Part shown: in pieces, positions 50-13,292 of the stretch
How the letters are laid out: every line of letters starts with the position of its first letter
Numbering within the stretch: position 1 is the stretch's first letter
Assembly (NCBI GenBank): GCA_005883365.1
Contig: VAXA01000216.1
Location: 1 to 13,292, forward strand
Length of the DNA: 13,292 nucleotides
Source: Actinomycetota bacterium
GTDB lineage: Bacteria; Actinomycetota; Thermoleophilia; Gaiellales; Gaiellaceae
Reading direction: 5' to 3'
Position numbers and translations under genes: made by a program
The notes under the pieces: generated by a model
Told to the model about the DNA's origin: nothing
The model's database searches: none
Seen by the model: the letters and a program-made list of their open reading frames with translations, nothing else

Positions 50-1126
50 CTACGGATGGTGCACGAGCTGCCAGAGCGGCTTCTCGTGCGGGCCGAGCGG
101 GATGTAGTCCATCCCGTCGGGCGTGTTCAGCTGGTTCGCGCCCCGGCCCGGCTGAGCGAGGTGGCCGTACTGCCAGACGATCCGCCGCTTCCGCGGGTCG
201 ACGATCACTACGCGGTCGTTGTAGTCGTCGTTGATCGCGATGTTCCCGTTCGGGAGCTCGATCGCGAGAGAGGGATGGTCGAGCTCGCCCCAGCCCGAGG
301 CGGGCCCGTACCGCCACAGGACCCGGCCGTGCCGGTCGATGATCACCGCGGCGCCCGGTCTCGCGTAGTCCGCGAGCAGGATCCGCCCGCGGGCCAGCGG
401 CTGTGGGTCGGACGGGTACGACACCGGCGCCTGGAACGACCGGAGCAGCCGGCCCGTCCTGCTGAAGAAGTCGATCCAGGAGCCGTTGATCTCCGAGACG
501 AGGACGCCCCCGTCGGGGAGCGGCGTGTCGCCGTTGACGGCTCCGAGCGCCCGCGGCGGATCGTGGACGCAGGCGTCCGTGCGGCCGATCTGACGCACGA
601 CCCGGTGGTTCCGGATGAAGAGGATGCGACAGCGGTAGGCGTCGGCGACCGTGAGCGTCCCGTCCGGGAGGACGTATGCGTCGTCCGGCCAGTTGAGCCT
701 GTTCGGCGGCCCAGCCGACGCGCCGGGTCCGGCCTGGATGCCGGGAACGCCGAAGAGCCGTGTCACGCGGTGGGTCTTGATGTCGATCGAGAGGATGTCG
801 CCGTGATCCTCCTCGTTCGTGACGAGCGCCTTGCCGCCCGGCTCGACGAACGTGTCGTCGTCGAAGACGAGCCTGCGACCCAGCGCTCGGTCGCGGGCGG
901 TCGGGAAGCTCCAGAGGACGCGGCGGTGCGTGTCGACGAGCAGGATCCGGTCGTTGCCCCGGTCTGCGATGAGGAGCGCGCCCGGCAGCGGCCCGCGCGG
1001 CGTGATAACCCGGTTCGGGTTCGGTCTGGGCTTCGGTGCCGGCGGCTGCGCATGGTGCGTCCCTCCGCAGCCGGCGAACGCGACGGCCGCGAGGAAGACC
1101 GGGAAGCTCCGGAAGAGAAGGCGCAC
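50..1126 (-). CDS. Secreted lipoprotein with six-bladed NHL/PQQ-like beta-propeller
   Basis: This is a 358-residue protein starting at a GTG codon. Residues 1-20 form a lipoprotein signal peptide (basic start, hydrophobic core, lipobox ending AFAGC with lipidated Cys20), followed by a Pro-rich linker to about residue 38. The rest is repetitive: about six blades near residues 48-75, 85-125, 145-180, 196-232, 240-275 and 284-321. Each carries a pattern like LPDG/LPNG..., a small-residue strand, then ...VD or ID...GRVLW. This is typical of NHL or arylsulfotransferase-like propellers. No catalytic residue set is recognisable, so the ligand or enzymatic role is unknown; it probably acts on the outer face of the membrane. 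It is divergent from thiE with only 19 bp between the starts. A TACGAT hexamer lies 1 nt before the GTG, too close for an ordinary promoter of this start, so the exact start is less certain than the reading frame. Confidence 0.85.
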   Translation of the reverse strand: MRLLFRSFPVFLAAVAFAGCGGTHHAQPPAPKPRPNPNRVITPRGPLPGALLIADRGNDRILLVDTHRRVLWSFPTARDRALGRRLVFDDDTFVEPGGKALVTNEEDHGDILSIDIKTHRVTRLFGVPGIQAGPGASAGPPNRLNWPDDAYVLPDGTLTVADAYRCRILFIRNHRVVRQIGRTDACVHDPPRALGAVNGDTPLPDGGVLVSEINGSWIDFFSRTGRLLRSFQAPVSYPSDPQPLARGRILLADYARPGAAVIIDRHGRVLWRYGPASGWGELDHPSLAIELPNGNIAINDDYNDRVVIVDPRKRRIVWQYGHLAQPGRGANQLNTPDGMDYIPLGPHEKPLWQLVHHP

Positions 1127-1145: not shown

Positions 1146-1784
1146 ATGGACGGACACGCTCGCCGCGAGCGCCTCGACCTGTCTCGACTCTACCTCGTTC
1201 TCGAGGCGCGCCCGCACGGCGAGGACCCGCGTCCCCTGCTCGACGCGGCCCTACGCGGAGGTGTCGACGTCGTCCAGCTGCGCGAGAAGACACTCGGCGA
1301 CGAGGCGCTGGTCGCCGCAGCCCAGCCGTTCCGGGCGGCTTGTGCGGAGCACAGCGCGCTCTTCGTCCTCAACGACCGCCCCGGTCTGGTCGAGGCTTGT
1401 GGTGCGGACGGCGTCCATGTCGGGCAGAGCGACACGCCCCTCGAGGAGGCGCGATCGCTCGTCGGCGCCGAGCGCATCGTCGGCTTGTCAGCAACGACCG
1501 CAGAGGAGCTTCTGAGCGGTGACCCCGACTACTGGGGCGTCGGTGCGATCTTCGGCACCCCGACGAAGCCCGACTCGTCTCCGGGCGGCCTCGATCTCGT
1601 GCGGGCGGCGGCGACGAGGCTGACTGTCCCCTGGTTCGCGATCGGGGGCGTCGAGCTTTCGAACGTCGCAGAGCTGGCGGCCGCCGGGGCGCCCGGCGTC
1701 GCGGTCGTCCGCGCCATCCGGGACGCCGCCGATCCCGAGGCGGCGGCGCGGCTGCTCCGGAATGCGCTAGATCGGAAGCAGTAG
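1146..1784 (+). CDS. thiE: Thiamine-phosphate synthase ThiE
   Basis: ThiE joins HMP-pyrophosphate (4-amino-2-methylpyrimidine unit) to the thiazole phosphate HET-P, giving thiamine phosphate in the cytoplasm. The 212-residue length matches the family's single TIM barrel. The family motifs appear in order: QLREK (44-48), NDR (76-78) and GVHVGQSD (89-96), whose Asp residues bind Mg/pyrophosphate; GLSATTAEE (113-121); the YWGVGAIFGTPTK loop (129-141) containing the conserved Lys; and AIGGV (165-169), the phosphate-binding turn. The ATG at 1146 gives the normal N-terminus; the frame stays open upstream, but that part overlaps the divergent lipoprotein gene and is not coding. No TPP riboswitch fits in the 19-bp gap and no other thiamine gene lies in the window, so this gene stands alone. 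Its 3' end overlaps the convergent GyrI-like gene by 18 bp. Confidence 0.95.
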   Translation: MDGHARRERLDLSRLYLVLEARPHGEDPRPLLDAALRGGVDVVQLREKTLGDEALVAAAQPFRAACAEHSALFVLNDRPGLVEACGADGVHVGQSDTPLEEARSLVGAERIVGLSATTAEELLSGDPDYWGVGAIFGTPTKPDSSPGGLDLVRAAATRLTVPWFAIGGVELSNVAELAAAGAPGVAVVRAIRDAADPEAAARLLRNALDRKQ

Positions 1785-2165
1785 GTCGATCTCGTCGTGC
1801 CGCCGGTAGTGCTCGAGGCTGGGGCGCGTCTCGTCGGGCCTCGCCTGGCGCATCAGCTCGTCGAAGGTCGGCTTGATCCGCTCGTAGATGCCCGGCGGGT
1901 CGCCGCGCAGCCGCGCCCGGACGTAGCGGCCGCCGGGCAGCGTGCCGGACTCCAGGCCGGGCACGAGCTCGTCGCCCTCCCGCACTTCAACACAGGCGCG
2001 GTAGTCGTCCGCGACGGGGTCGTAGGCACCGTAGAAGCGACGCCCGCGCAGCGCGACGTCTGCTTCGAGCTGATCCCAGGCACGGCGGATGTGCGGCAGT
2101 CCGTCCGGGACGCGCACGAACTGCACCGCGATCTCCTCGCGCTCCACCTCGGCGAACTCCGTCAT
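1767..2165 (-). CDS. GyrI/SbmC-like small-molecule-binding protein
   Basis: This is a 132-residue stand-alone domain resembling the GyrI-like (AraC effector-binding, SHS2 fold) family. Supporting features are the ligand-pocket region with FYGAYDP (44-50), the strand YRACVEV (55-61), GGRYVRARLRG (78-88), a helix IYERIKPTFDELM (93-105) and the characteristic acidic C-terminus DEIDLLLPI (124-132). Family members include E. coli GyrI/SbmC, a LexA-controlled gyrase modulator. Some relatives hydrolyse cyclopropane-type DNA-alkylating toxins; others only bind drugs. Which of these applies here cannot be read from the sequence. The ATG at 2165 forms an ATGA overlap with the stop of the upstream DUF6504-like gene, so translation is probably coupled and the protein belongs to the SOS-type operon. 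The frame is open further upstream, but that part runs inside the neighbouring gene. Confidence 0.78.
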   Translation of the reverse strand: MTEFAEVEREEIAVQFVRVPDGLPHIRRAWDQLEADVALRGRRFYGAYDPVADDYRACVEVREGDELVPGLESGTLPGGRYVRARLRGDPPGIYERIKPTFDELMRQARPDETRPSLEHYRRHDEIDLLLPI

Positions 2166-2452
2166 GCGCCTCGCTGGACATACCAGCCACCGCTCGCGCC
2201 GTCGTGGAAGACGACGGTGTTCTCGCCGCTCTCGAGCACGAGCTCGAAGTAGCGGCGCACGACGGGCTCCTCTGTCCACCATCGGTCGACGACACGCCAT
2301 TCCTCTCGCACGAGCGCGACGGCGCGATGGTTCACCTCGAGGGGCGTGCCGTCGACGCGCGCCTCGACGCGCGCCGCGCGCGGCGCGTTGAAGCGGGCGA
2401 CTACTCGTCCTTCGGCACGAGCAGCGCGCGACTCTCCGGCACGCGCGACCAT
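2162..2452 (-). CDS. DUF6504-like small protein, ImuB partner
   Basis: This is a 96-residue protein of unknown biochemical function. Its core, WRVVDRWWTEEPVVRRYFEL (52-71) followed by a strand and VFHDGASGGWYVQRG (81-95), matches my recollection of the actinobacterial DUF6504 family, which is commonly encoded beside SOS Y-family polymerase genes. The ATG at 2452 lies inside the end of the imuB-like gene (52-nt overlap), and the stop overlaps the next start as ATGA, so it sits in the middle of a tightly coupled three-gene operon. A shorter form would begin nearer residue 17, but no ATG/GTG/TTG start was found there. The double-Trp motif and basic N-terminus could suit protein or nucleic-acid contact; that is speculation. 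The family name is from memory and needs a profile search. Confidence 0.7.
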   Translation of the reverse strand: MVARAGESRAARAEGRVVARFNAPRAARVEARVDGTPLEVNHRAVALVREEWRVVDRWWTEEPVVRRYFELVLESGENTVVFHDGASGGWYVQRGA

Positions 2453-3582
2453 GGCGCCACCTCCACGACGGTGCAGACGGAGCCGGAGCCGGTGCTCGCC
2501 CGCACCTGGCGCAGCCCGTTCCGCAGCCGGGAGCGGTCCTCGGCGCCGGCTGCGAGCAGCTCGAGCTGGTGGCCGGTCGGCTCGGTCAGCTCGACGAGCT
2601 CGAGGCGGAGCTCGCCGACCGGCGCCGGCAGCTCGGCGAGCCGCGGCGAGAGCGCGACGCGGATCCGGTCGGGGTCGGCGCTCGGCTCCCGCAAGGTCAG
2701 CGTCCGCCGCCACGAGCCGCCGCTCTCGAGCCGAGCCGCGAGCGCGACCTTCCGGACGAAGCGATCGCGTCGCTCGGGCCGCGCGAGCGCGGTCTCGACG
2801 AGCCCCGCCAGCGCACGCCTCAACGTCAGCTCGTTGCCCACTGCCTCTGGGAACTCGAGCGAGGCGGCGACGGCGGCGGGCGGGCGCCGGCCGCGCACGC
2901 GCGCGGCCGTCCCACCTCTCGCCAGGCCCCAGGCGCGCCGGCCGTCCGGCCCCAAACGTTCGGCGACGGCGCCACCCGGGAGCCCGGCAAGCTGCCCCAG
3001 CTTGCGAACTCCGAGTGCTTCGAGTTCCTCGTAGCGCCCGCGCTCGAGCGGGAGGAGCGTGAGCGGCAGCGGTGCGAGGAACTGCGGCAGCTCCTCGTCG
3101 GCGACCACGACGACCTGCCCGGGTCGCGCGACGGAAGCTGCCGCGAGTGCGGCGAAGCGGCGTCCGGCCGCGCCTATGCGCGCGTCCCACTCGGCTCCGA
3201 CCGCCGCGAGCGCGCGCCGGAGCGCCGGCTCGAGGCCGCCGTAGAGCCGCTCGACTCCCCGCGTCTCGAAGTACGCGACGCCGAGCGAGGCCGGCTCGAC
3301 AGCGAAGCCGGCATCTTCGAGCGCGTGCAGGATCTCCTCCCAGCCGCGCTCAGCACCAGCCGCGTCCGGCTCGACGAGCGCGAGCGACGGGCACGTCGCG
3401 AGCGCCTCCCCCAGCCGCATCCCCGGCCGCACGCCCGCCGTCTCGGCAGCCGCAGTCACCGGCCCGACCAGGGGCTCGCCCTGAGGCTCCGGCGCGAGCG
3501 CCGCCGGCCGCAGCGCGAGCGTCGGCGTCAGCCGCAATGCGGCCTTCAGCTCGAGCGCGGGGATGGCGATGCATGCGATCAT
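2401..3582 (-). CDS. imuB: ImuB-like Y-family DNA polymerase homologue, catalytically inactive
   Basis: A 393-residue DinB/ImuB-type protein. Palm-like residues 1-160 include TAAAETAGVRPGMRLGEALA (43-62) and the RIGAAGRRFAALAAA segment (135-149). A thumb-like helix-hairpin-helix follows (ALGVRKLGQLAGLP, 189-202), then a little-finger domain to the C-terminus. The Y-family catalytic carboxylates are missing: the usual first D-F-D motif reads IAIPALE (5-11), and the SIDEAYLD motif reads SLGVAYFE (99-106). This is the pattern of ImuB, the non-catalytic adaptor of the mycobacterial ImuA-ImuB-DnaE2 mutasome. A clamp-binding candidate QLELL lies at 339-343. The gene heads a minus-strand operon behind two LexA boxes. 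No imuA or dnaE2 lies nearby, so the catalytic partner must be encoded elsewhere or be different. The start is ATG at 3582, with no Shine-Dalgarno and almost no room for a leader. Confidence 0.85.
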   Translation of the reverse strand: MIACIAIPALELKAALRLTPTLALRPAALAPEPQGEPLVGPVTAAAETAGVRPGMRLGEALATCPSLALVEPDAAGAERGWEEILHALEDAGFAVEPASLGVAYFETRGVERLYGGLEPALRRALAAVGAEWDARIGAAGRRFAALAAASVARPGQVVVVADEELPQFLAPLPLTLLPLERGRYEELEALGVRKLGQLAGLPGGAVAERLGPDGRRAWGLARGGTAARVRGRRPPAAVAASLEFPEAVGNELTLRRALAGLVETALARPERRDRFVRKVALAARLESGGSWRRTLTLREPSADPDRIRVALSPRLAELPAPVGELRLELVELTEPTGHQLELLAAGAEDRSRLRNGLRQVRASTGSGSVCTVVEVAPWSRVPESRALLVPKDE

Positions 3583-3583
3583 G

Positions 3584-3597
3584 GGAACGTATGTTCT
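3584..3597. promoter_or_regulatory. LexA (SOS) box 1, proximal to imuB
   Basis: GGAACGTATGTTCT contains a perfect GAAC-N4-GTTC dyad, and the inner four bases GTAT also fit the Gram-positive/actinobacterial consensus CGAACRNRYGTTCG. It ends 1 nt before the imuB-like start codon and overlaps the predicted -10. Confidence 0.8.
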
Positions 3598-3622
3598 ACA
3601 CGAACACCTGTTCCCCTGTCAA
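3586..3622 (-). promoter_or_regulatory. Candidate SOS promoter of imuB operon
   Basis: Read on the minus strand, a perfect -35 hexamer TTGACA (3622-3617) is followed by an 18-nt spacer and a -10-like TAGAAC (3598-3593, four of six consensus bases). Predicted transcription start is about 3586, only a few bases before the ATG at 3582, so the mRNA would be nearly leaderless. One LexA box fills the spacer and the other covers the -10/start region, the expected geometry for tight repression. Confidence 0.6.
3601..3614. promoter_or_regulatory. LexA (SOS) box 2, in promoter spacer
   Basis: CGAACACCTGTTCC is a second perfect GAAC-N4-GTTC dyad, centred 17 bp from box 1 and lying between the predicted -35 and -10 of the imuB-like promoter. 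It is 44 bp upstream of the divergent cupin start, so it could also affect that gene. Confidence 0.78.
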
Positions 3623-3657: not shown

Positions 3658-4236
3658 ATGGTCGAGAAAGCCCGCCTGGACGACGTCGGCTCCGGGCTCG
3701 CGCCCGTCTCCCCCGGCTGGTTCGTCGTCAACGTCGGCGAGGCTGCCTGGCTACGGAATGACGCGTTCGGCGGTCGCTGCGTGTTCGAGAGCAGTCGGCG
3801 CGTGCTCGCCGAGCGGCCCGACGCCGAGCCGCAGATGTTCGCGGACACGGGCTTCACGCTCGCCGTGCTCGAGCCCGGCAAGCCTTCGGGCATGTACCAC
3901 GCCGAGTCCGCGCAGGAGGACTTCCTCGTCCTCGCCGGTTCCTGTTTGCTCCTCGTGGAAGACCGCGAGAGGCCCCTCGGAGCCTGGGACTTCGTTCACT
4001 GCCCCGCCGGAACCCGCCACACCTTCGTCGGCACGGGCGACGGGCCGTGCGTGATCTTCATGACCGGCGCCCGCCGTGAGGGCAAGACGATCGTCTACCC
4101 GGTCGCCTCACGTGCCCGCGCCCACGGCGCCGGAGTCGAGACGGAGACGAACGACCCGATGGAGGCGTACTCGCCGTTTGAGCACTGGCGCTCCGGCCGG
4201 CCGGACGCCTGGCCGGATCTTCCGTGGGCAGGATGA
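3658..4236 (+). CDS. Cupin domain protein
   Basis: A 192-residue single-domain cupin. Cupin motif 1 corresponds to PSGMYHAESAQEDFLVLAG (76-94), with His81 and an acidic ligand (Glu83 or Glu87). Motif 2 is GAWDFVHCPAGTRHTF (108-123), with His121. A metal-binding beta-barrel is therefore likely, although motif 1 has H-A-E instead of the usual H-x-H. The substrate is unknown; related stand-alone cupins include isomerases, dioxygenases and ligand-binding proteins. It has no signal peptide, so it is cytoplasmic. The gene starts a plus-strand cluster and is divergent from the SOS-type operon, sharing a 75-bp region with both LexA boxes. The following S4-protein gene begins 4 nt after its stop. The C-terminal tail (about 165-192) is Trp/Pro-rich and lies outside the barrel. 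Confidence 0.85.
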   Translation: MVEKARLDDVGSGLAPVSPGWFVVNVGEAAWLRNDAFGGRCVFESSRRVLAERPDAEPQMFADTGFTLAVLEPGKPSGMYHAESAQEDFLVLAGSCLLLVEDRERPLGAWDFVHCPAGTRHTFVGTGDGPCVIFMTGARREGKTIVYPVASRARAHGAGVETETNDPMEAYSPFEHWRSGRPDAWPDLPWAG

Positions 4237-7060: not shown

Positions 7061-9613
<2,553 letters not shown>

Positions 9614-9652
9614 CGGGCCGCAGATGTTGTCATATGCACGGGTTATTGCCGG

Positions 9653-9835
9653 CTAGCGGCGCCGGGCGCGAAACTCGGCAACCCACGCGAGGGCGCGCAG
9701 CCCGATCCAGATCGGCGTGAGCAGGACGTAGAAGATGAAGTCCCCTACGAGCAGGACGACCCACCAGAGCGCCCAGCGTCGCAGCGGGATGCGCGGTTTC
9801 GGCGTCCGCGTGGGGAGGTTGGGCTCGGACGTCAC
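9653..9835 (-). CDS. Small Trp-rich membrane protein between PDRP and ppdK
   Basis: This is a 60-residue hypothetical protein. A basic, Pro-rich N-terminus (1-20) is followed by a long hydrophobic, Trp-rich stretch (21-50: WALWWVVLLVGDFIFY, then LLTPIWIGLRALAW) and a basic end (FRARRR). This looks like one or two membrane-spanning helices with positive charge on both flanks. The GTG start overlaps the stop of the PDRP gene (GTGA), and ppdK begins about 40 nt further on, so it is embedded in the PPDK operon. No family is recognised. The hydrophobic pattern, coupled start and lack of a competing frame support it as a real gene. Membrane anchoring of PPDK or PDRP is only a guess. Confidence 0.7.
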   Translation of the reverse strand: MTSEPNLPTRTPKPRIPLRRWALWWVVLLVGDFIFYVLLTPIWIGLRALAWVAEFRARRR

Positions 9836-10671
9836 CGCGCGGCCTGGGCCTTCGTCTCGCCGGCGCGCTCCTCGACGACGCGGAGGATGCGGTGTGCCGT
9901 CTCCTCGATCGACAGCTCGGAGATGTCGATGACGGGGCAGCCGAGGCGGCGGTGGAGCTTCTCCGCCTGCTCGAGCTCCTCGTAGATCTCGGCGAGCTCG
10001 GCGTACTGCCGGTTGCGGCCGGGCGCACCCATCGCCCGCACGCGCGCCCTGCGGATCTCGACCAGCCGGTTCGGATGGATCGTCAGGCCGACGACCTTCG
10101 CCTGGTCGACCTCGAAGAGCTCGGGCGGCGGTTCGATCCCCTTCACGACCGGGACGTTCGCCGCCTTATGGCCGAGATAACCGAGGTAGATCGAGAGAGG
10201 CGTCTTCGAGGTGCGGGAGACGCCGACGAGGACGACGTCCGCGTCGTGGAGGCCGTGCGCGACCCCGTCGTCGTAGCGAACCGCGAACTCGATCGCCTCC
10301 ATCCGCTTGAAGTACGCCGAGTTGAGCGGCGGCCGCGAGCCCGGGGTCATCTTCGCCGCCTGGCCGGAGACGCGTGCGACGGCGTCGATCGGCTGGCCGA
10401 GCAGGTCGCAGTAGTGGAGGCGTGCGCGGCGGCAGAGCGTGCGCATCGCCTCACGGAGCTGCGGCTGGACGAGCGTGTAGACGACGACGGCGGGCCGGCC
10501 GCGCATGCGGTTGACGGCGAGGTGGAGGTCGTCCTCCGACTCGACGCGCGGGTGGCGGATCTCGACGAACTCCTGGTCGGGGAACTGCGCTTCGAGCGCC
10601 TGAACGAGCCGCGCCGCCGTTTCGCCGGTGGCGTCGGAGACGACATGGAGCTCGACCGGCGGGTTCGGCAT
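9832..10671 (-). CDS. Pyruvate phosphate dikinase regulatory protein (PDRP, kinase/pyrophosphorylase)
   Basis: This is a 279-residue protein of the DUF299/PSRP family. These bifunctional enzymes inactivate PPDK by ADP-dependent phosphorylation of the Thr next to its catalytic His, and reactivate it by Pi-dependent dephosphorylation that releases PPi. Visible motifs are HVVSDATGETA (9-19), MTPGSRPPLNSAYFKRMEAIEFA (about 108-130), the P-loop GVSRTSKTP (150-158), PPPELFEVD (181-189), GLTIHP (195-200) and CPVIDISELSIEETA (245-259). Adjacency to ppdK, whose target Thr432 is present, indicates PPDK and not PEP synthase as the substrate. It is the first gene of a three-gene minus-strand operon. The ATG at 10671 has no Shine-Dalgarno but has TACGCT 8 nt upstream, suggesting a leaderless transcript. 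Confidence 0.94.
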   Translation of the reverse strand: MPNPPVELHVVSDATGETAARLVQALEAQFPDQEFVEIRHPRVESEDDLHLAVNRMRGRPAVVVYTLVQPQLREAMRTLCRRARLHYCDLLGQPIDAVARVSGQAAKMTPGSRPPLNSAYFKRMEAIEFAVRYDDGVAHGLHDADVVLVGVSRTSKTPLSIYLGYLGHKAANVPVVKGIEPPPELFEVDQAKVVGLTIHPNRLVEIRRARVRAMGAPGRNRQYAELAEIYEELEQAEKLHRRLGCPVIDISELSIEETAHRILRVVEERAGETKAQAAR

Positions 10672-10863
10672 GGGCGCTCAGCGTAACGGGGCGTGCTGTT
10701 CTTGCTCCGTCCCAAACCCCCACCCACCCGCGGGGAGGTCAGCCTACGGCGGCGCGGCGCGCAGGAATGTGGCAACTTCGCGCCGAGAGGCTGGGAACGC
10801 TGCGTGACGGACGGCGCTCGGGAGGCGGCGATCCGGCCGGAAGCGCCCGGGTAACCTCCGCGC
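10672..10863. promoter_or_regulatory. Divergent PDRP/glyS intergenic region with candidate promoters
   Basis: This 192-bp gap is the longest in the window. For PDRP (minus strand), TACGCT at 10685-10680 lies 8 nt before the ATG. For glyS (plus strand), TAACCT at 10852-10857 lies 6 nt before the ATG. Neither has a convincing -35 or a Shine-Dalgarno, and both would give leaderless mRNAs. A G-rich tract lies between them. I see no T-box motif and no glycine-riboswitch-like helices. Confidence 0.45.
10711..10729 (-). other. Potential G-quadruplex motif
   Basis: The minus strand reads GGGTGGGTGGGGGTTTGGG: four G-runs of at least three separated by loops of 1, 1 and 3 nt, which fits the standard intramolecular quadruplex pattern. 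It lies 39 nt upstream of the PDRP start, on the PDRP coding strand, ahead of the candidate -10. Confidence 0.5.
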
Positions 10864-12228
10864 ATGGCCGAGACGGCCCCACCGCTGACGATGGACACGA
10901 TCGTCTCCCTCTGCCGCCGCCGCGGCTTCGTCTTCCCATCCTCCGAGATCTACGGCGGGATCGGCTCGACGTACGACTACGGCCACTACGGCGTCCTCAC
11001 GAAGAACAACATCCGCTCGCTCTGGTTTCGCGCGATGGTGCAGGAGCGCGACGACATCGTCGCCCTCGACTCCGCGATCATCCTCAACCCGCGCGTCTGG
11101 GAGGCGTCCGGCCACGTGGACGTCTTCACCGACCCGCTCGTCGACTGCCGCACGTGCAAGCTCCGCTTCCGCGCCGACCAGCTCGAGCTCGCGAGCTGCG
11201 GCCGCAAGCCGAGCAAGCACCCCGGGGAGACTCCGGACTGCGACCTCACCGAGGCGCGCAAGTTCAACCTCATGTTCGAGACGCACGTCGGGGCGCTCCA
11301 GGACGCCAGCTCGGCCGCCTACCTCCGTCCCGAAACCGCCCAGGGCATCTTCGTCAACTTCAAGAACGTCGCCCAGCTCGCGCGACGCAAACCGCCGTTC
11401 GGCATCGCCCAGATCGGCAAGGCGTTCCGGAACGAGATCACGCCCGGCAACTTCCTCTTTCGTCAGCGCGAGTTCGAGCTGATGGAGATGGAGTTCTTCG
11501 TTCCACCCGACGAGAGCGAAGAGTGGCATCGCTACTGGATCGAGACTCGCCGACGCTGGTACCTCGACCTCGGCATACGCGAGGAGAATCTCCGCGTGAG
11601 GGAGCACGCCGCCGAGGAGCGCTCGCACTATTCGAGCGCGACGAGCGACCTCGAGTACCTCTACCCGATCGGCTGGCAGGAGCTCGAGGGGATAGCGAAT
11701 CGCGGCGACTACGACTTGACGCAGCACACGCAGCACTCGGGCACGAAGCTCGAGTGGATCGACCCCGACGGGACCCGCTACACGCCGTACGTCATCGAGC
11801 CTGCCGTCTCGATTGACCGCATCATGCTCGCCTTCCTCTGCGACGCCTACGACGAGGAGGTGGTCGGCGACCGCGAACGCGTCGTCCTCCGCCTCCACCC
11901 GCAGGTCGCGCCCGTGAAGGCGGCAATCCTCCCGCTCGTCCCGCGTGACGAGGGGATGGCGACCCGGGCGCGCGCGCTGTACGAGGAGCTTCGCCGCCAC
12001 CACGTCGTGGAGCACGACGACAGCGGCCAAATCGGCAGGCGTTACCGCCGCCAGGACGAAATAGGTACGCCGTGGGCCTTCACCATCGACGAAGAGACGC
12101 TCGAGGACGAGACCGTCACCGTGCGCGATCGGGACTCGCTCGCGCAGGAGCGGCTTCCGATCAGCGGAGTGAAGGAATGGCTGGACGACGCGCTGCAGCA
12201 GGGCTGGTCCTCGCCGCGGTCGGGCTGA
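10864..12228 (+). CDS. glyS: Glycyl-tRNA synthetase (alpha2 type)
   Basis: This is a class II aminoacyl-tRNA synthetase that charges tRNA-Gly in the cytoplasm. The 454-residue length and organisation fit the homodimeric bacterial/archaeal-eukaryotic type, not the alpha2beta2 form. Features in order: motif 1 region SSEIYGGIGSTYDYGHYG (26-43); GHVDVF (83-88); a Cys cluster (Cys95, Cys98, Cys112, Cys126) that might bind zinc; RPETAQGIFVNF (155-166); motif 2 FRNEITPGNFLFRQREFE (188-205); QHSGTKLEW (290-298); motif 3 EPAVSIDRIMLAFL (312-325); and an anticodon-binding domain from about 340 containing PLVPRDEG and the GRRYRRQDEIGTPWAFTID segment (391-409). The ATG at 10864 has no Shine-Dalgarno; TAACCT is 6 nt upstream. 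The last 52 nt overlap the next gene in another frame. Confidence 0.96.
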   Translation: MAETAPPLTMDTIVSLCRRRGFVFPSSEIYGGIGSTYDYGHYGVLTKNNIRSLWFRAMVQERDDIVALDSAIILNPRVWEASGHVDVFTDPLVDCRTCKLRFRADQLELASCGRKPSKHPGETPDCDLTEARKFNLMFETHVGALQDASSAAYLRPETAQGIFVNFKNVAQLARRKPPFGIAQIGKAFRNEITPGNFLFRQREFELMEMEFFVPPDESEEWHRYWIETRRRWYLDLGIREENLRVREHAAEERSHYSSATSDLEYLYPIGWQELEGIANRGDYDLTQHTQHSGTKLEWIDPDGTRYTPYVIEPAVSIDRIMLAFLCDAYDEEVVGDRERVVLRLHPQVAPVKAAILPLVPRDEGMATRARALYEELRRHHVVEHDDSGQIGRRYRRQDEIGTPWAFTIDEETLEDETVTVRDRDSLAQERLPISGVKEWLDDALQQGWSSPRSG

Positions 12229-12766: not shown

Positions 12767-13292
12767 TGTCCTACCCACGGACGTTGTGAACGCGGCTGAT
12801 TGGTGGCCGGTCGCCGATTGAGCTGTGTGGTCGGCGGTGGTTGTAGTTGTCGAGCCAGTGTGGCAGGGCGTTGTTGCGGTGTCGATGGGTGCGGTAGCTG
12901 AGGCCGTAGGCCCATTCGCGGGCCATGGTCTGGTGGAAGCGTTCGACCTTGCCGTTGGTGCGTGGCCGGTAGGGCTGGGTGGTGAGGTGGCGGATGCCAC
13001 GCCGGTTGAGCAGTTCGGCGAGGGAGCGGTTCTTGACTAGCTGAAGCCGTTGTCGGTCATCAGCCGCTTGCAGACGATGCCGTGCTCGGCGAAGAAGGCG
13101 AGTGCGCGCTCGACAAAGCCTGTCACCGTCGCTGCTTTCTCGTCGTTGTGGAGCTCGACGTAGCGAAGCGGGAGTGATCGTCGACGATCGCGTGCGCGAA
13201 GTCGTAGCCGACGCGAGTCTCGGGACGCATCCAGCCGCGCGAATGCTGCGAGCGGTCGCCGGTGACGCGGTGTCCTGGCCGCAGAAAGCGCG
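12767..13292 (-). mobile_element. IS481-family insertion sequence, cut by window edge
   Basis: The element probably starts at TGTCCTACCCACGGACGTTG (12767-12786), which contains the transposase stop codon and begins with the TGT common at IS481-family ends. Only the transposase 3' part and one terminus are inside the window, so the opposite inverted repeat cannot be compared. Insertion is immediately downstream of the DUF4232 stop, at a CTAG tetramer. Confidence 0.75.
12771..13292 (-). pseudogene. IS481-family transposase, frameshifted and partial
   Basis: Reading three successive frames on the minus strand recovers one continuous DDE integrase-core protein. It runs from RFLRPGHRVTGDRS at the window edge, through FAHAIVDDHSR, RYVELHNDEKAATV, KRLMTDNGFS, VKNRSLAELL, RPRTNGKVERFHQTM and HWLDNYNHRRPHSSIGDRPP, to a TAG stop at 12771-12773. 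The DDE acidic residues are present: Asp in VDD (about 13177-13182), Asp in TDNG (13052-13054) and Glu in KVERFH (12942-12944). Two single-base losses break the frame, near 13166-13167 (between HSR and RYVEL) and near 13037-13038 (between GFS and VKN). The gene is therefore non-functional as sequenced unless both are sequencing errors; other genes in the window show no frameshifts. The N-terminal helix-turn-helix part lies off the right edge. Confidence 0.85.

Follow-up and report, generated by a model that had tools for sequence, protein, structure and literature searches.

A LexA-box operon in Thermoleophilia probably forms the first half of a split-ImuB mutasome cassette

The window analyzed here is a stretch of 13,292 nucleotides (contig VAXA01000216.1 of assembly GCA_005883365.1) from a member of the Gaiellaceae, in the class Thermoleophilia of the Actinomycetota. 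We propose that the genes behind a LexA-box promoter on its minus strand make up the first half, under LexA control, of a split-ImuB mutasome cassette, in which an inactive Y-family polymerase (iPolY, similar to ImuY) is followed by a standalone ImuB-C and by DnaE2, apparently without ImuA. We put the probability of this at about 85%. The first-pass annotation had viewed the operon as a different kind of damage-response cassette that matched no described system. We find that dnaE2 belongs to the set, which then matches the imuY/iPolY - imuB-C - dnaE2 mutasomes described in PMC8072749, PMC6511836, and PMC12926913: the Y-family active site is disrupted, a standalone ImuB-C gene is adjacent, dnaE2 is downstream, and the Y-family protein has a tail that resembles the N-terminus of RecA. 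Judged from its sequence, the operon is real, well conserved, and of the SOS type, but of a described kind.

The first gene (2401-3582, minus strand) encodes a protein of 393 amino acids. It had been called an ImuB-like adaptor, and this holds: the protein matches Pfam's IMS (E = 3.5e-9) and IMS_C (E = 2.6e-6), and its relatives in PDB also identify it as a Y-family polymerase. The aspartate and glutamate of DinB's SLDEAY motif are replaced by glycine and a non-acidic residue in all 40 aligned iPolY rows (the window's included). At residues 5-9, where the N-terminal aspartate would be expected (as located by eye), 39 of the 40 have no acidic residue. There is a clamp motif (QLELL, residues 339-343) whose Q339 and L342 are kept in 40/40 rows. 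When we compared the tails of 38 of these proteins to the N-terminus of the genome's own RecA, the mean score was 18.6, which none of 1,000 shuffles reached (the highest was 17.6); this was an ungapped comparison of related sequences to a single RecA, and L114, L028 (broken end), and L109 (fused) were dropped. The window's protein ends right after the RecA-like motif and has no fused ImuB-C, while six ImuB-type proteins from plasmids (five of which adjoin an annotated ImuA) continue into ImuB-C at that point. We conclude that gene 1 encodes a Y-family polymerase that is predicted to be dead, that carries a clamp motif, and whose tail is like the N-terminus of RecA. It is 26% identical to ImuY of Deinococcus, and a search of plasmids with the window's ImuB protein gave no match.

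The second gene (imuB-C; 2162-2452, minus strand) encodes a protein of 96 amino acids, and it is predicted to supply the ImuB-C domain (as defined in PMC3765255) that is absent from gene 1. Because the domain libraries matched nothing (no Pfam or NCBIfam model at E of 1), we relied on profiles to identify it. A profile that includes the other families of the order matched DUF6504 (PF20114) in hhalign with a probability of 93 and E = 3.5e-7, and ImuB-C aligned with the C-termini of the six ImuB-type proteins with a probability of 87 and E = 4e-6. So the suggestion that gene 2 is DUF6504-like stands at the level of profiles, but not as a direct match: the window's protein does not reach the cut-off for DUF6504, and just 2 of 30 family members match that model (best 1.5e-4). 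The ImuB-C profile matches 4 of 12 test sequences, namely the C-terminus of a Nitrospirota ImuB-type protein (7e-14), the ImuB-C of D. deserti (1.7e-7), and two fused C-termini (1e-5 and 1.5e-4); it misses the remaining fused ImuB-type C-termini among the 12. Pfam's own DUF6504 model, run on four ImuB-type proteins, matched the C-terminus of two, at 24.0 and 17.6 bits, both below the cut-off of 24.2. ImuB-C has roughly 6,000 relatives (5,988 of 7,995 scored), and none of the 120 listed has a Pfam domain.

One locus, in a divergent genome placed in the same family, has the two parts together. In L109 (G200:C100, 7185-8633, minus strand), a single frame of at least 484 residues encodes both iPolY and ImuB-C, and a divergent dnaE2 (39% identity) follows it. 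This would be a natural fusion of the two parts that are split elsewhere.

The imuB-C gene begins inside imuB and shares 52 nucleotides with it, and this start looks real. The imuB codons for VVEVAPW usually include GTG GAG GTN, which places GGAGGT directly before an ATG or GTG (in the window, GGAGGTG lies upstream of imuB-C, within imuB). The second valine codon of VVEVAPW is GTG in 33 of 40 family loci, versus 34% of valine codons; this count leaves out L028, L036, and L038, ignores kinship, and is descriptive only. Four loci (L013, L032, L111, and L115) have CCC at the place of the imuB-C start and hence no ATG or GTG there.

No dnaE2 had been seen alongside these genes, which is correct for the window but not for the rest of the assembly or for relatives. 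Positions 1-164 of the window overlap the end of another contig of the same assembly, C230 (158/164 identical). C230 carries dnaE2 at 7717-10941, on the same strand as imuB, and NCBIfam identifies the dnaE2 product as an error-prone DNA polymerase (988 bits, over the cut-off of 939). An NHL-like protein that spans the overlap is identical at 37 of 37 residues. A LexA box for dnaE2 lies at 11322-11333 of C230, with an antisense cupin gene between the box and dnaE2. The assembly is of 2.15 Mb and encodes two DnaE-type proteins. We believe that dnaE2 is likely downstream of imuB-C, on the same strand, in this genome.

In relatives, iPolY, imuB-C, and dnaE2 lie in that order on one strand. Among 129 genomes of the order, we found ImuB-C in 110 (and in 42 of the 43 that are near-complete) and a cassette-type DnaE2 in at least 116, where 32-35% paralogues are left out of the count. 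Both are present in 106 genomes, on the same contig in 90 and on different contigs in 16 (including the window's own). In all 90 genomes with both on one contig, dnaE2 is downstream of imuB-C and on the same strand, with a gap of 0-8,071 nucleotides (median 780). Compact iPolY - imuB-C - dnaE2 cassettes are also found in other families of the order (L100 and L103-L106). It has to be asked whether the window's three genes (adaptor, DUF6504-type protein, and GyrI-like protein) could be a self-contained damage-response cassette that works without dnaE2, as they overlap each other and share one SOS-type promoter, and dnaE2 has its own LexA box in this genus. Given the 90 of 90 genomes with dnaE2 downstream, and given how seldom the GyrI-like gene comes directly after imuB-C (in 5 of the genus's 16 genomes; among 34 related loci, four carry it there and one more has a fragment), we consider this highly improbable.

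In a tree of DnaE-type polymerases (36 rows, nine of them partial, with a midpoint root), the cassette's DnaE2 proteins form one clade (100/100). This clade groups (89/92) with seven other DnaE2 proteins; five of these have annotated ImuA and ImuB genes next to them, and the other two are next to a Y-family gene and a hypothetical gene. The rows of D. deserti and Thermomicrobium are outside both of the tree's clades, the second of which is formed by 8 of the 9 DUF6504-linked polymerases; the ninth falls with DnaE1.

The proximity to a clade that is mostly beside ImuA and ImuB would fit with a canonical ImuA-ImuB-DnaE2 mutasome, with imuA elsewhere in the genome, as in mycobacteria, and with ImuB-C merely split off. 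Other bacteria do scatter these genes, and our tests for ImuA had low power. However, there is no gene between the LexA boxes and imuB, and we have no credible match to ImuA in the 129 genomes: a presumed actinobacterial ImuA used as the query gave scattered matches (best E = 1.2e-4; 2 of 129 genomes at 1e-3 or below) in what is a low-power test. Finally, PMC6511836 and PMC12926913, in their passages on split-ImuB systems, describe these as lacking imuA. Overall, we think that a canonical mutasome is quite unlikely.

Several observations weigh against a split-ImuB cassette, or against parts of it. First, the link to dnaE2 within the window's own genome is an overlap of 164 nucleotides in an assembly that is 78% complete, and because the identity is only 96%, the join between the window and C230 is likely but not proved. 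Second, because dnaE2 has its own box in the window's genus, imuB-C and dnaE2 are probably separate transcripts there. Third, in one other family of the order, three of four loci (L099, L101, and L102, but not L100) have imuB-C and dnaE2 with no match to iPolY beside them, although upstream sequence is limited to about 0.9 kb in L099 and about 1.9 kb in L101. These three have a LexA box at or just before imuB-C; perhaps they are a DnaE2-plus-ImuB-C-only arrangement, or perhaps iPolY is encoded elsewhere. Fourth, a profile of ImuB-C that was built from the window's family alone matches DUF6504 weakly (probability 21). Fifth, the DnaE2 of D. deserti does not group with the cassette clade, but it is on a long branch and its place is unsure. 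Sixth, NCBIfam's model for ImuA is a weak test, as it had no hits over the cut-off in the 129 genomes but also none in 14 control genomes, including Caulobacter. And the ideas that RecA replaces ImuA and that ImuB-C contacts the PHP domain are taken from published models, by analogy.

The promoter is consistent with LexA control. Two perfect GAAC-N4-GTTC dyads on a TTGACA/TAGAAC promoter had been reported directly before the imuB-like gene, and both are there. On the minus strand, a -35 hexamer (TTGACA, 3617-3622) is followed by 18 nucleotides and a -10 hexamer (TAGAAC, 3593-3598), both as read from the sequence; the -10 hexamer ends 10 nucleotides before imuB's start codon (3582-3580). Box 1 (3602-3613) is in the spacer and box 2 (3585-3596) overlaps the -10 hexamer and the likely start point. 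The window has two perfect boxes where 0.14 would be expected, and 2 of 200 shuffles had at least two. Across the 2.15 Mb genome, the pattern has 20 forward matches, versus 9 for a reversed control pattern; as the pattern by itself is not rare in the genome, the case for the boxes at imuB rests on their position and conservation.

Both perfect boxes, at about -31 (box 1) and -14 (box 2) from the start codon, are present in 28 of the 29 loci, among 34 related loci, that retain the region before imuB. In the remaining locus (L016), one box is perfect and the other has a single mismatch. The check for boxes in relatives that the first-pass annotation had proposed therefore comes out in its favor. 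Five further family loci (L110-L113 and L115) also have both boxes, while L109 has a single perfect box, as do all 8 scorable loci from other families of the order (L097, L098, L100, and L104-L108). In an alignment of the family's promoters, TTGACA (TTGACG in a few), TAGAAC, and the boxes are conserved and the sequence further upstream is not. (This alignment has 34 rows and includes L114, which is from the same contig as L011 and is excluded from our other counts.) Four of the genome's 20 boxes precede core SOS genes (identified with Pfam): lexA (by 28 nucleotides), recA (89), uvrA (21), and ruvA (19). Several of the other boxes have no such neighbor and may be chance matches. Tested LexA sites of similar sequence in Streptomyces (PMC9380542) are a parallel within the Actinomycetota. 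With a conserved box that overlaps the promoter and is shared with lexA and recA, the proposal of LexA/SOS control of the imuB operon is supported to the extent that sequence allows. Neither the window nor the family's aligned promoters have a Shine-Dalgarno sequence before imuB, and the -10 hexamer lies so near the start codon that the imuB mRNA is probably leaderless or nearly so.

Other boxes in this genome are of some interest. On contig C176 (L052, 639-1559, minus strand), a perfect LexA box contains the possible start codon of a radical SAM gene (by Pfam), which is perhaps a SplB-like repair enzyme. On contig C224 (L042, 1922-1956), there are two perfect boxes whose starts are 23 nucleotides apart, with a TTGACA nearby. 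In the window, a cupin gene (3658-4236, plus strand) is oriented away from the imuB promoter, and the LexA boxes may overlap with the cupin's own promoter. Of the 34 related loci, only L009 had a match to this cupin.

Similar systems have been described. In Deinococcus, the operon is lexA-imuY-imuB-C-dnaE2, and UV mutagenesis of D. deserti is lost without ImuY, DnaE2, or the chromosomal RecA (PMC8072749, a review). We read the products of the D. deserti operon directly, and these are LexA, a Y-family polymerase, a DUF6504 family protein, and DnaE. The Deinococcus systems (D. deserti and D. ficus) share with ours a Y-family protein that is predicted to be inactive, a standalone ImuB-C (DUF6504) of 80-96 amino acids, DnaE2, the order of the genes, and LexA control (which is predicted for ours), and in the review's account of them no imuA is reported. 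They differ in that lexA is part of the operon, whereas here it is elsewhere, and in that the genes abut; in our case, the start of imuB-C is within imuB, and dnaE2 is set apart by other genes and a distance of kilobases.

More generally, an iPolY - ImuB-C - DnaE2 - RecA type has been described, with iPolY and ImuB-C together called a split ImuB, and the DnaE2X type has been suggested as a possible precursor of the ImuAB-linked type (PMC6511836, PMC12926913). The putative DnaE2X-iPolY-ImuB-C-RecA mutasome of the Kyrpidia tusciae type resembles ours in having an iPolY with the RecA N-terminal motif, a standalone ImuB-C, and DnaE2, and ImuA was found in neither (in ours, by low-power tests); our cassette's DnaE2 is close to but outside the ImuAB-linked group, in a tree that did not include those authors' DnaE2X sequences. 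The ImuA-ImuB-DnaE2 mutasome of Mycobacterium, Caulobacter, and Pseudomonas shares the dead Y-family adaptor, the clamp motif, the RecA-like tail, ImuB-C, DnaE2, and (by prediction for ours) SOS control, but here ImuB-C has its own gene, and our low-power tests did not find ImuA. The last type is DnaE2B with only a standalone ImuB-C (the Arthrobacter alpinus type; PMC12926913). Within the phylum, a DUF6504-type gene is beside a dnaE-type gene in 24 of 30 fetched loci, which is similar, but 8 of 9 such polymerases are in the other clade of our tree, with one in DnaE1, and the window's system has an iPolY.

By analogy with these systems, we predict that upon DNA damage, activated RecA (RecA*) would trigger the cleavage of LexA and the (near-)leaderless promoter would open. 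The iPolY would dock on the beta clamp through QLELL and would hold RecA, in place of ImuA, through its RecA-like tail. ImuB-C would be produced from a start within the imuB frame, through translational coupling, and would bridge to the PHP domain of DnaE2, which would carry out error-prone synthesis. In the window's genus, thiE, NHL-like, and cupin genes would have come between imuB-C and dnaE2; because dnaE2 has its own LexA box, both halves would stay in the SOS regulon. The GyrI-like protein would be induced alongside and might bind or detoxify a small molecule, without being part of the machine.

The GyrI-like gene (1767-2165, minus strand) begins with an ATGA overlap with imuB-C, so the three overlapping genes are as first reported. 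It encodes a protein of 132 amino acids, a likely small-molecule-binding protein that matches Pfam's Cass2 (E = 1.9e-7) and GyrI-like (E = 7.2e-7; 30.0 bits, above the cut-off of 26). The expectation that it would be part of a conserved three-gene order is not borne out. We found GyrI-like matches in 8 of 16 genomes of the genus: the gene is directly behind imuB-C in five (the window's own, G225, G227, G228, and G230), a remnant is beside imuB-C in G232, and G219 and G229 have relatives with 50-52% identity on other contigs. Among the 34 related loci, four have the whole gene and one has a fragment. With such a patchy distribution, we rejected it as a conserved member of the cassette, and it reads as a lineage-specific passenger.

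GyrI-like proteins bind small molecules, and some hydrolyze DNA-alkylating cyclopropanoids, for which two glutamates are essential (E157 and E185 of lin2189); SbmC is cited as an SOS gene (PMC5684135). From these roles, and from SbmC, the predicted co-induction makes sense. It could be argued, then, that the protein forms a third, functional arm, in that it binds or removes a compound that damages DNA; the operon would then be a combined detoxify-and-bypass module. Both Pfam matches are over their cut-offs, four other genomes of the genus have the gene abutting or overlapping imuB-C, and GyrI-like proteins can protect cells. Its patchiness even within the genus and the lack of any credible relative in PDB by sequence (best E = 0.26) make this doubtful.

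Our proposal that the window holds the front half of a longer cassette raises the question of how the two halves came apart. In close relatives, imuB-C is separated from dnaE2 by other genes, including the thiE-like gene (TMP-TENI), which in the window is at 1146-1784 on the opposite (plus) strand. An NHL-repeat-like gene (50-1126, minus strand), with only sub-cut-off matches to Pfam, is also in this interval. A perfect box of its own precedes dnaE2 in 11 of 11 loci with thiE between the halves, versus 5 of 33 loci without thiE. (Loci without a dnaE2 start and the duplicate L114 were dropped; the loci are not independent, so these counts are descriptive only.) In five of the 11 loci, the box lies beyond an antisense cupin gene. 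Where the box is directly before dnaE2, the alignment places dnaE2's start about 0-18 nucleotides after it, and by eye, most of these starts have no normally spaced Shine-Dalgarno sequence. In nine other loci (L015, L020, L021, L027, L030, L032, L035, L040, and L115), one or two opposite-strand cupin genes are nested between imuB-C and dnaE2, and there is no perfect LexA box in the interval; four of the nine (L020, L027, L032, and L115) have AGGAG shortly before dnaE2. This fits with two solutions for the expression of dnaE2, namely that transcription reads through from the imuB promoter or that dnaE2 has a leaderless SOS promoter to itself.

In six loci (C230 [L041] at 10938-11333, L007-L010, and L012), the opposite-strand cupin gene lies between dnaE2's LexA box and dnaE2. 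Antisense to this cupin, a frame begins with ATG at 15 nucleotides after the box (GTG at 17 in L012) and is open for 116-124 codons in all six loci; in five of the six, it ends as ATGA on the dnaE2 start. We rejected the openness of this leader frame as evidence because the corresponding antisense frames of seven control genes are likewise nearly stop-free (0-3 in-register stops each).

Noncontiguous operons have been described (PMC7154746), and a speculative and rather doubtful extension of our proposal is that the family's cassette is one. Across the family, a single LexA-controlled transcript (or two LexA-controlled halves) would run across the opposite-strand cupin and thiE genes, so that SOS induction and cupin expression would be mutually exclusive. 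In the genus, the old leaderless start of dnaE2 would have been kept at 15 nucleotides after the box, and from it, a leader frame would now run antisense through the inserted cupin, end as ATGA on dnaE2's start, and couple dnaE2's translation to its own.

Beyond the order, we found ImuB-C in 16 of 25 genomes from the rest of the class, with a match to iPolY in the flanks of 13 of 15 fetched loci (L134-L148); these class-wide counts cover ImuB-C and iPolY, not dnaE2. With a widened ImuB-C profile (A4), 26 of 296 genomes of the phylum match. "Thermoleophil-" has no mentions in the main text of a 2026 survey (PMC12926913), and within the literature that we searched, we found no paper that unites imuB, dnaE2, and Thermoleophilia and no description of the cassette in this class. 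What appears to be new is that these genes occur, unannotated, across Thermoleophilia, that their SOS promoter is probably leaderless, and that some cassettes are broken up by antisense genes, with dnaE2 often having its own LexA box.

Thermoleophilia are a large class of soil Actinomycetota, mostly uncultured, and this would supply the machine that they likely use for SOS mutagenesis. It would also allow a sharp test of an open question from PMC8072749, which is whether RecA itself is needed in place of ImuA in split-ImuB systems. As the various lineages have the set in compact, split, and re-boxed forms, and once fused, they could help in tracing the origin of the ImuA-ImuB-DnaE2 mutasome.

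Two records that are named as Acidobacteriota and Burkholderiales carry such cassettes (L013 and L035, with 81% and 69% identity to the window's ImuB, respectively); these are probably misnamed or misbinned. Within the same class, L116 (G029:C13) has a match to DUF6504 (8.9e-7) and none of the query genes were found within 16 kb, so this DUF6504-type protein seems to stand away from dnaE2. At the far end of the window, a frame on the minus strand (12771-13292) runs off the end and, from its translation by eye, reads like the catalytic part of the transposase or integrase of an insertion sequence (IS) element.

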